Assembly: GCF_003150675.1 (NCBI RefSeq)
Contig: NZ_QGGB01000007.1
Span: 248,001-312,000, forward strand
DNA length: 64,000 nucleotides
From: Rhodohalobacter mucosus
Lineage (GTDB): Bacteria; Bacteroidota; Rhodothermia; Balneolales; Balneolaceae
Reading direction: 5' to 3'
Part shown: piece after piece, positions 60,536 through 64,000 of the stretch
Position numbering within the stretch: position 1 is the stretch's first letter
How the letters are laid out: every line of letters starts with the position of its first letter
Program-made: the position numbers and the translations under genes
Notes under the pieces: model-generated
Seen by the model: the letters and a program-made list of their open reading frames with translations, nothing else
The model's database searches: none
What the model was told of the DNA's origin: nothing

Positions 60536-60814
60536 ATGAAAATAATTGCAAAGTCTTTAGCTGTTGCGTTAATTCTGATATTAACCACATTGAACCTAAA
60601 TTTTGTTTATCAACTCAACCCATTTGATCTTCAATTTGGAGTTGAAATAAGTGATATTCAAGCATCTTCCACACTGGAGCATGACCATATAATGGAAGAA
60701 GAGATTTGCTGGGTTACCGGAGAAGAAATTGATATCTGCAGATATAGTCCTAATATGATCTGCGATGTACCGGCTCAGGACACATGCAGTGATTCAAATC
60801 CGGGTGAAAATTAA
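60536..60814 (+). CDS. Small secreted four-cysteine peptide, NVEALA-like
   Basis: The 92-residue product has a hydrophobic N-terminal signal (about 5-24), a polar leader with FGVEISDIQASS, and an acidic cysteine-rich tail with Cys58, 68, 76 and 84. It lacks the literal NVEALA motif but matches that family in size, layout and position directly before a 6-bladed propeller lipoprotein gene, as I recall from Bacteroides. Composition is AT-rich compared with its neighbours. The function is unknown; a processed, exported peptide is likely. Confidence 0.6.
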   Translation: MKIIAKSLAVALILILTTLNLNFVYQLNPFDLQFGVEISDIQASSTLEHDHIMEEEICWVTGEEIDICRYSPNMICDVPAQDTCSDSNPGEN

Positions 60815-60827
60815 TGATAATCAATAA

Positions 60828-60848
60828 CCCTCGAACCAAATTCGGGGG
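60828..60848 (+). terminator. Intercistronic hairpin between peptide and propeller genes
   Basis: CCCTCGAA (60828-60835), loop CCAAA, TTCGGGGG (60841-60848) form a stem of eight pairs with one wobble, 13 bases after the peptide stop. No long T run follows, so it may attenuate transcription or protect an RNA end rather than fully terminate. Confidence 0.45.
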
Positions 60849-60864
60849 TCTATTAATATCCAAA

Positions 60865-62070
60865 ATGAAATATTACTTATTGATCTTACTGTTAATTACC
60901 GGATGTACAAATAGATCTTCTGACAGATCTATAAACAGACCAGGAGATATTCAGGAAATTTTTATTGATGTTGATCAAGCCGAACCCATATATATGTCTG
61001 ATTTTTTTTCAGGTATAACATATATCCCACTGAAAAACCCTGGCAAGAGTCCTATGGGTATTATTACTAAAATAATGCCTCAAGGCAATATGATAGCGCT
61101 CTACGACCGAACAAAAAAAAGCGTATGGATTTACAAGGAAGGAGGTGCTTTTATTGGAGAGGTTAAGATTCCTGAAGGAAAAGGACCAGGTGAGCTTGAA
61201 CATATATCAGATGTTTATTTTGATGAAGATTTCAAAATTCATGTCCTGGGTGCATTTAAAATTATGACCCTGAACATGAATGGAAATTTGATAGCGGAGT
61301 CATCAATGGACCTCTTTGCCAGGTATTTTACCTACGATGTAAATTCAAATAGGTATTATGGATTTGGAAGTGGAAATTCAAATGTGCGCATTCCGGATGA
61401 ATTTAAAGGATTTGATCTGTTCAAATTCGATGATACCGGTGTTATTGAAAAAAGCTTTATTCCGATAGAAAAGAATAAGCAGGGGATATCCTATGGTATC
61501 CCCAACTACTTTCCCACATTCAACGGGGAGTACTATTTTTTCAAGCATCTTCATGATACCGTTTATAAAATCGAAGGTGATGAAGTTCAACCTGCCTATG
61601 CTCTTGATTTTGGGGATTATGCATTGCCGGATGAAGTGTTTGAAAGAAGGAAGGATTATGGAAATGAAATTTGGCAATGGACCGAATTTTGGGATAATGA
61701 GATAGAACCTTATGATTACATTGTATATAAGACAAACTTTGAAATCACTGAGAAATATATTCATATGAGAGTTGGGAATAACGACTCAAAGTATATGATA
61801 CTTTATCATAAGGATAAGAAAGAGACATATGTTGGAGAAGATAGGTTTATAAATGATATCGATTTTGGTCCTAGCCCATTTATTTTTATGAGCTCTGATA
61901 AACATTTGTATTCCTATGTGAATGCAAATGACTTTTTAAGGCATATGAATTCAGTATATGAAAGTAATCGGGAAAGATATTCCAGTAATAGGATGATTGA
62001 ATTAAGACGGTTAGCGAATTCAATGAGTGAAAACAGCAATCCGGTTTTAATGAGACTGGAATTTAAATAG
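60865..62070 (+). CDS. 6-bladed beta-propeller lipoprotein
   Basis: From ATG 60865 the 401-residue protein opens with an ideal lipoprotein signal (MKYYLLILLLITGCTN). An earlier in-frame ATG at 60814 overlaps the peptide stop as TAATG, but would add 17 residues before the signal. The repeats (YIPLKNPGKSPMGIITKI, IALYDRTKKSVWIYKEGGAF, VKIPEGKGPGELEHISDVYF) are those of 6-bladed propeller lipoproteins that often accompany NVEALA genes. It is AT-rich, and could bind or display the peptide. Confidence 0.85.
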   Translation: MKYYLLILLLITGCTNRSSDRSINRPGDIQEIFIDVDQAEPIYMSDFFSGITYIPLKNPGKSPMGIITKIMPQGNMIALYDRTKKSVWIYKEGGAFIGEVKIPEGKGPGELEHISDVYFDEDFKIHVLGAFKIMTLNMNGNLIAESSMDLFARYFTYDVNSNRYYGFGSGNSNVRIPDEFKGFDLFKFDDTGVIEKSFIPIEKNKQGISYGIPNYFPTFNGEYYFFKHLHDTVYKIEGDEVQPAYALDFGDYALPDEVFERRKDYGNEIWQWTEFWDNEIEPYDYIVYKTNFEITEKYIHMRVGNNDSKYMILYHKDKKETYVGEDRFINDIDFGPSPFIFMSSDKHLYSYVNANDFLRHMNSVYESNRERYSSNRMIELRRLANSMSENSNPVLMRLEFK

Positions 62071-62101: not shown

Positions 62102-63583
62102 TCACTGAGCAGATAGCGCCATCACACTCCTGTACCGGTTGTACCTGGAAATCACCCGGTCTACATATTGTACGGTTTCCCTGCCGCGGACGTATCCGTG
62201 CTCGGCGCGTTCGAAATGCCGTCTTTCCATCAGCATCAACAGGGCATTGGCCGTGGACGGCCAGTCGTTGGGATTGCGGTTTTGCTCCATCACCAGCCGG
62301 CGGGCATCCACCAAGTGGCCGATGCCTGCATTGTAGGTGGCCAGCGCAAATTTCACCTGGTCCAGGCTGTCGAGGTAGGCGTAGTGGTTCAGGTGGCTCT
62401 TCAGAATGGCCGCTCCCTCACGGATATTGGTTTCCGGGTCGTACAGTGTGGGGTAGTCATTTTCAGAGTAACGGGGAAGGATCTGCATCAGTCCCACGGC
62501 GCCCGCAAAGCTTTTGGAACCCGGGTTAAAAGAAGACTCCTGTGCAATCACAGCCGTGAGCAGCAGCGGATCGATACCGATGGAGTCGGCTGCCGACTGT
62601 ACAAGACCGGAGTACGGAGAAAAAAGCATGCCTCTCTCTATAGCTGCAGTCGTCGTGTCATAGTAGGCGGAGAGCTGCGGGCTCTCCTCAAAGTAGTGCC
62701 TCTTCAGAATATTCAGAAATGCGGAACTGTATCCCGCCTCTCCGGTGTCGGAAATCCGAAAATGTTTCTGCAGATAACGGCTCAGTTCCTGTTCAAGTTC
62801 CGGTGCATTCGGCCGGACCGCCCACGCGATAGAGTCACTTTCTGCAATCACAGGGCCCCTGGACAGACCCGGATGAAGCCCGGCTGCTTTTTGGAAGGAG
62901 TAGCTGTTTGAAACGGCAGCCAGTGCGCGTCCGTCGGCCAGCATGCGGTAGATCATATCCTGGTCTGCATTGCCGGAAAGGGGATCCAGATTCAGGCTGA
63001 TTCCGTTTCCCCGGATCTTTTCCAGATGGTAAGCGGCATCGCTGCCGGACAGCACGGTAATTGGAATGCCTTCTTCAGCCAGTGCAGCCAGAGAATCCGG
63101 TTGCTCCTCCAGGTGCGGAGAGTAGACCAGAAAGCGGTCGGTCAGAAGATACGGGTGTGTGAAAATTGCACCGTTGGTCCGGTGCGGAGAAGCGGCCAGT
63201 CCCATGGCAATCACGTCACCCTGTCCGCTCTTGAGAATAGTTATGGGGTCATCATCCTGACTCATAATCTCAACTTCAAGCAGCAAATTGTGTTCGCGAG
63301 CAAAGGCGTGAAGCAGTTCAAATTCGAAGCCCGCGTCCATTCCCCGGTTGAGAAAGTAGGTATCCGGGCCGTAGCGGGTAATCATACGCAGCACACCGCT
63401 ATTGGAGATCTCCGGAAAGTCGCGCTGAACGGTAGCAGCCGGCATGGCTTTTTCGGCCTGCATCTGCTCTATAAATTGATCGACGTCCTCGAAAGTGATG
63501 CAGGAGGGGAATATCAGTGCGCAAAAGCAGACCGCCATTGCTGCAGGAAGACCCGTTCTGACATTGAAAGGGGGTGTTTTCAT
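62102..63583 (-). CDS. mltF: MltF-like lytic transglycosylase
   Basis: The 493-residue protein has a lipoprotein-type signal (AVCFCALIFPSCITF), a solute-binding-protein-like domain (about 50-280, GVLRMITRYGPDTYFLNRGMDAGFEFELLHAFA in its start) and a C-terminal SLT domain with the catalytic Glu in AVIAQESSFNPGS and the GAVGLMQILPR motif. This is the MltF architecture; it cleaves peptidoglycan glycan strands, with the binding domain sensing muropeptides. Converges with the propeller gene. Confidence 0.9.
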   Translation of the reverse strand: MKTPPFNVRTGLPAAMAVCFCALIFPSCITFEDVDQFIEQMQAEKAMPAATVQRDFPEISNSGVLRMITRYGPDTYFLNRGMDAGFEFELLHAFAREHNLLLEVEIMSQDDDPITILKSGQGDVIAMGLAASPHRTNGAIFTHPYLLTDRFLVYSPHLEEQPDSLAALAEEGIPITVLSGSDAAYHLEKIRGNGISLNLDPLSGNADQDMIYRMLADGRALAAVSNSYSFQKAAGLHPGLSRGPVIAESDSIAWAVRPNAPELEQELSRYLQKHFRISDTGEAGYSSAFLNILKRHYFEESPQLSAYYDTTTAAIERGMLFSPYSGLVQSAADSIGIDPLLLTAVIAQESSFNPGSKSFAGAVGLMQILPRYSENDYPTLYDPETNIREGAAILKSHLNHYAYLDSLDQVKFALATYNAGIGHLVDARRLVMEQNRNPNDWPSTANALLMLMERRHFERAEHGYVRGRETVQYVDRVISRYNRYRSVMALSAQ

Positions 63584-63694: not shown

Positions 63695-63757
63695 AGCTAT
63701 CAGCTATCAGCTATCAGCTATCAGCTGTCAGTGGTCAGTTGTTGGTTGTTTGTGGTT
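63695..63757. repeat. Heptamer tract AGCTATC drifting to TGTGGTT
   Basis: Four exact AGCTATC units are followed, in phase, by AGCTGTC, AGTGGTC, AGTTGTT, GGTTGTT and TGTGGTT. The units drift step by step while the 7-base period is kept. Confidence 0.85.
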
Positions 63758-63790
63758 TTGAGAATTGGATAGAGATAAGAAATTTATTTT

Positions 63791-63818
63791 TGGTGCTTGG
63801 TGCTTGGTGCTTGGTGCT
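63791..63818. repeat. Heptamer array TGGTGCT x4
   Basis: Four exact copies of TGGTGCT lie 33 bases after the previous tract and 32 before the next one, not in the same phase. Confidence 0.9.
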
Positions 63819-63850
63819 TGCAATCTATACGCAATAAAATTTACCTTCAA

Positions 63851-63927
63851 GACTCAAGACTCAAGACTCAAGACTCAAGACTCAAGACTCAAGACTCAAG
63901 ACTCAAGACTCAAGACTCAAGACTCAA
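63851..63927. repeat. Heptamer array GACTCAA x11
   Basis: Eleven exact, uninterrupted copies of GACTCAA occupy 77 bases. With the two arrays before it, it accounts for most of the structure in the 417 bases from mltF to the window end, which otherwise hold no gene. Exactness suggests recent expansion; the copy number may vary between strains. Confidence 0.95.
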
Positions 63928-64000
63928 GTCACTCTTCCAAACCGGTCGAGTCGGGCTCCAAATCCGTTAATATCCGCTTATCGGCAAATATCTGAACCAC

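Follow-up and report, generated by a model that had tools for sequence, protein, structure and literature searches.

The window, the whole 64,000-nucleotide stretch of DNA analysed here, comes from a genome that its relatives place in the Balneolaceae. Near one end it carries a compact islet of two genes, one for a small peptide with four cysteines (residues 58, 68, 76 and 84) and the other for a six-bladed β-propeller lipoprotein (Table 1). The islet has a GC content of 0.34–0.36, against about 0.50–0.57 on either side. The initial annotation had described the two AT-rich frames in their higher-GC surroundings, the 92-residue product with its cysteine spacing and the propeller lipoprotein, and our analysis agrees with it on each of these points.

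The longest frame of the propeller is the forward-strand ORF 60814–62070 (418 aa), which overlaps the peptide ORF in a TAATG at 60812–60816. Alignments with homologues begin at residue 18 and the lipobox (MKYYLLILLLITGC) comes after 60865, which makes the ATG at 60865, rather than 60814, the probable start of the protein; the overlap is probably incidental. The islet has no exporter gene of its own, and the adjacent ABC and HlyD genes form a MacAB-type efflux set that lacks a C39 domain. Elsewhere in the window, positions 62102–63583 encode an MltF-like lytic transglycosylase, with a second copy in the same genome (C2:71611, 46% identical) and copies in relatives of the genus at 45–49% identity; positions 63695–63928 hold three close, perfect or near-perfect heptamer tandem repeats (AGCTATC x5, TTGGTGC x4 and TCAAGAC x12).

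Table 1. Features of the two-gene islet, in positions of the window
Feature	Position	Strand	Description and basis
Four-cysteine exported peptide gene	60536..60814	+	92 aa, ATG start; ORF, family profile matches, invariant Cys and Gln
Peptide leader, residues 1–43	60536..60664	+	Hydrophobic segment, then I-Q-A; alignments; putative cleavage after A43
Cysteine core C58–C84	60707..60787	+	C-X9-C-X7-C-X7-C with CW and Q-D-x-C motifs; alignment
Intergenic RNA hairpin	60827..60849	+	9-bp stem, 5-nt loop; RNA fold z about -3.2 to -3.8
DUF5128 six-bladed β-propeller lipoprotein	60865..62070	+	Probable start; Pfam, alignment, AlphaFold2, Foldseek
Lipoprotein signal	60865..60906	+	Lipobox ITGC, C14 invariant in the family; alignment

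The propeller lipoprotein

The second gene product matched the Pfam family PF17170 (DUF5128, '6-bladed beta-propeller') at 7e-31, scoring 108 bits against a gathering cut-off of 22.9. An AlphaFold2 model (pLDDT 82, pTM 0.79), confident apart from the signal, folds as a propeller; the assignment of six blades comes from PF17170 and from the match to 4raa. This structure (B. fragilis BF0058) is the best solved match by Foldseek (TM 0.82 by target length) and is also matched by sequence profile, but has no assigned function; further fold matches are 8ptf and 8blw. Following the predicted lipidated cysteine, three relatives have a KDE- or KEE-like stretch, comparable to the K-(D/E)2-type signal for exporting lipoproteins to the surface, and the window protein has CTNRSSD instead. 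Two motifs, GxGPGE and NDID, are invariant among the propellers; GPGE is common to other DUF5128 proteins, and both motifs look structural. Elsewhere in this genome, a long same-strand array of DUF5128 genes, mostly without peptides and interrupted by RND efflux genes, lies at C12:26000-70000 (L082-L084).

A peptide family with a propeller and a hairpin behind it

The predicted peptide is MKIIAKSLAVALILILTTLNLNFVYQLNPFDLQFGVEISDIQA-SSTLEHDHIMEEEICWVTGEEIDICRYSPNMICDVPAQDTCSDSNPGEN, the dash marking the putative cleavage. Matching peptides lie directly upstream of a full-length propeller paralogue in the same genome (C10) and of full-length relatives in six further genomes. Profile searches that started from the peptide recovered the known members plus one new one (G320), again with a propeller after it, and a separate phylum-wide search with the propeller family reached the tenth member (G165), which has exactly C-X9-C-X7-C-X7-C, with EAQTVC. 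This member was not part of the model; the core profile scores it at 6e-5 in a search of 13,201 ORFs. The resulting family has nine members in the Balneolaceae and one in another family, with the conserved core C-X9-C-X6/7-C-X7-C. Since four cysteines and one glutamine are invariant across all ten aligned sequences, the cysteine pattern is more than chance. The initial annotation had allowed that conservation might reveal an untranslated frame; the ORF is instead conserved in frame, and by this evidence the peptide gene is real.

The signal-like N-terminus described earlier also holds up. Most members have an [AVI]-x-A motif between the hydrophobic segment and the cysteine core (IQA, AEA, VQA, AQA or ANA), which on sequence grounds is a site of signal-peptidase-I type. 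In one member (G027) the motif forms an ordinary short signal peptide; in G320 it reads AHA-Q, agreeing with the Q-rule for Bacteroidetes signal peptides (PMC10653852); it is absent from G019. The long spacer of the window peptide is unusual, and we therefore only infer cleavage there. Its leader is a hydrophobic signal and not of the GG type (L-N/S-R-N/S-E-M-K-x-I-x-A-G). No family in Pfam or NCBIfam matched the peptide, a search of the PDB returned no relative, and its structure model was poor (pLDDT 60) and too uncertain for use.

A propeller lies directly downstream of the peptide in all ten members, a count that is partly biased because nine of them were first seen via the propeller. The unbiased part is the peptide-first scans: profile searches of 92 + 394 genomes gave no convincing case of a lone peptide. 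The 394-genome phylum scan yielded no further clear family member, and the four weak matches (E > 1e-4) that were opened were all chance ORFs. The initial annotation had proposed looking for small ORFs before propellers in related genomes, and had held that their absence from close relatives would undo its reading; they recur in every relative bearing the peptide. The dependence runs one way, with three propellers found without an intact peptide. In F. salsisoli the propeller and hairpin are kept and the peptide is gone; in G002 the 270 bases available contain no peptide; and in G014 the propeller is intact while the peptide is reduced to its 3' end, a remnant (MICYGGTVCNAGDQGSCSSEDRK) that scores above all 1935 scored shuffles. 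Loss of the peptide with retention of the partner is as expected of an immunity gene.

Pairing of this kind extends past the family. In the window and the other parts of this genome that were retrieved, a small ORF with four or more cysteines comes before 10 of 29 propellers, compared with 6 of 107 ORFs of other kinds (p=1.5e-4); one of the ten and most of the controls resemble chance ORFs. Among the strong propellers inspected elsewhere, in other genomes, roughly half have such a peptide as well. Three further arrangements were observed: in a member of the phylum from a distant family (L132 of G123, 900-1367), two small tandem four-cysteine peptides are followed by a hairpin and a DUF5128 propeller; a second, more distant DUF5128 lipoprotein lies just upstream of the paralogous peptide-propeller pair (L085, 4526-5734); and in the closest relative a 207-aa ORF of 28% GC comes directly after the propeller (L059, 5222-5845), a possible third islet gene that had no convincing Pfam match.

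The hairpin between the two genes was absent from the initial annotation and is new here. Scored against dinucleotide shuffles, hairpins reached z <= -2.5 in 16 of 18 pairs compared with 2 of 15 control gaps, which were same-strand gaps of similar size from the same genome (Mann-Whitney p=2e-4; p=4e-4 for the pairs of this genome only); in G037 and a few other pairs the gap is too short for folding, and these pairs, which have no hairpin, stand outside the 18. The hairpin sequence is wholly different between pairs and its structure alike, and it occurs with peptides of the present family and with GG-leader, other signal-type and NVEALA peptides. An Rfam search returned nothing. The hairpin of the window lacks a T-run and does not register as a terminator, so it would act in processing, stabilising or partial termination.

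Related systems and evolutionary behaviour

The closest architectural parallel is NVEALA (PF14055), where again a short peptide with a hydrophobic leader and a cysteine tail comes immediately before a six-bladed propeller lipoprotein. In one Bacteroidales genome each of the six NVEALA peptides precedes a propeller, with the same kind of hairpin in four of five foldable gaps. They differ from the present family in having the NVEALA motif, where ours has I-Q-A and its equivalents, in their variable rather than fixed cysteines, and in their occurrence in Bacteroidales, whereas our family is mainly in Balneolaceae. The earlier suggestion of a distinct NVEALA relative was right about the missing motif; relatedness found no support. 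PF14055 matched neither the peptide nor its family (genome-wide best E=5). The profile comparison that had been proposed as a check did align the leaders (hhalign E=4e-4), but when the columns after the hydrophobic segment were shuffled an equally good score arose in 10 of 60 trials, so that the hydrophobic segment explains the match and we rejected homology. The two kinds of pair are alike in architecture but not demonstrably in descent. A small probability, in our estimate, still attaches to a strict NVEALA-type system with a diverged member as its peptide: the six paired peptides, their hairpins and the aligned leaders speak for it, and the silence of PF14055 and the shuffling control against.

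In the same genome, a cluster at C1:234-254 kb (L080) contains four cysteine-rich peptides with GG leaders, each before a DUF5128 propeller, and hairpins lie between the genes in all three pairs folded. Unlike the window islet, with its hydrophobic signal and no adjoining exporter, this cluster combines double-glycine-type leaders with a dedicated exporter: it has a C39 peptidase exporter, HlyD and a VKOR/thioredoxin protein, a set of functions typical of peptides that are secreted and oxidised. Bacteroidetocins, class II bacteriocins of Bacteroidales (Coyne et al. 2019, PMC6671954, as cited in PMC10352776), are also small, ribosomal, exported peptides of this phylum. They have a GG leader and a peptidase transporter, whereas the window peptide has neither but does have a partner gene; according to the citation in PMC10352776, they are reported able to inhibit their producer, suggesting that no immunity protein exists. 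The word 'propeller' was not found in that Bacteroidales RiPP survey, and searches of a limited literature collection found no paper on NVEALA, DUF5128 or GG-leader Bacteroidales peptides.

One copy of the pair, beside gcvP, occupies a single conserved chromosomal site in four genomes. There the neighbouring proteins are 76–87% identical (a response regulator 58%), the propellers 41–53% and the peptides 33–52%, a fast divergence of the pair whose contrast with the flanks is in part expected, GcvP being a conserved enzyme. Over nine pairs, peptide and propeller distances were not significantly correlated (r=0.25, p=0.18). The genes flanking pairs differ from site to site. None of the relatives seen has its copy at the site of the window copy, which is closest to a copy from another genus (G045, 53% identity versus 42% for the same-genome paralogue); these two facts suggest that the islet is mobile. 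The initial annotation had suggested possible horizontal acquisition; low GC is weakened as evidence of transfer because all copies' sites are AT-rich, including the conserved gcvP site. Sought with both flanking genes, a clean empty site did not appear: close matches to the flanking efflux gene were confined to a single further genome of the genus, where there is no islet, and the matches to the transglycosylase reach only 45–49% identity. The islet flanks contain no convincing repeats and no tRNA.

Candidate functions of the pair

Given the co-occurrence, the hairpin, retention of the propeller after peptide loss and fast divergence, our best reading of the pair is a disulfide peptide that is secreted and an envelope partner dedicated to binding it. 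The first gene would give a pre-peptide that is exported via its hydrophobic leader; cutting at [AVI]-x-A would leave about 49 residues, held closed by two disulfides. The RNA hairpin past the peptide stop may keep the peptide in excess over the product of the second gene, an envelope propeller lipoprotein that would bind the producer's own peptide. More specifically, and tentatively, the two genes could form an operon for a narrow-range antagonistic, bacteriocin-like peptide and its immunity lipoprotein. Several observations weigh against this proposal: the majority of this genome's DUF5128 propellers lack an adjoining peptide, so that the fold clearly serves other purposes too; at 400 residues, the propeller would be a large immunity protein; the distances within pairs lack a significant correlation; and the islet has no exporter of its own and a peptide that is poorly modelled.

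The pairing, the hairpin and the fast divergence would equally suit a pheromone and its receptor, in which the propeller senses or captures a secreted signal peptide to recognise kin or gauge density. Surface capture of ligands is the role of Bacteroides propeller lipoproteins such as BtuG, with 8ptf and 8blw as the fold matches here. Against such signalling, the islet has no regulator, sigma/anti-sigma pair or two-component gene, its flanking genes vary by site and a response regulator occurs near the gcvP-site copies only. We consider a receptor unlikely, if a serious contender, and think immunity the more likely role, by a modest preference, since the partner persists after the peptide is lost and the sister clusters have the make-up of bacteriocin clusters. 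That no peptide was found without a propeller, although propellers without a peptide exist, would also suit a maturation partner, chaperone or enzyme, by which the peptide is folded, oxidised or trimmed once exported. This maturation role seems doubtful to us: orphan intact propellers would lose their substrate, the solved relatives 4raa and 3s9j (DUF4221) have no assigned activity in the records consulted, and the invariant motifs look structural, GPGE being shared with other DUF5128 proteins. The least probable account, to which we give hardly any credence, is a chance or housekeeping small ORF upstream of an ordinary envelope lipoprotein. DUF5128 is indeed large, with 32 matches in this genome, mostly without an upstream peptide; still, cysteines, glutamine and export signal conserved in frame in ten sequences already contradict this account, as does the one-way co-occurrence.

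More broadly, the pair may be one instance of a class spread through the Bacteroidota, in which otherwise unrelated cysteine-rich peptides have in common a DUF5128-like propeller partner and a hairpin. Such peptides would leave by at least two, perhaps three, export routes (a Sec-type signal, a GG leader with C39, and the NVEALA leader), the hairpin would set peptide over partner expression, and the propeller would be a general peptide-recognition element for self-protection or self-sensing. Taken as a whole, we regard this scheme as a realistic possibility that falls a little short of probable. Peptides of this sort are too short and too variable for family databases, and the hairpin offers an easy way to search for them. 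Bacteroidota have many propeller lipoproteins of DUF5128 and related kinds, none with an assigned role; should some of these be partners dedicated to exported cysteine-rich peptides, a ligand would be named for each and its function would become directly testable. Together, the recurring pairs point to a widespread, undescribed peptide-and-partner system.
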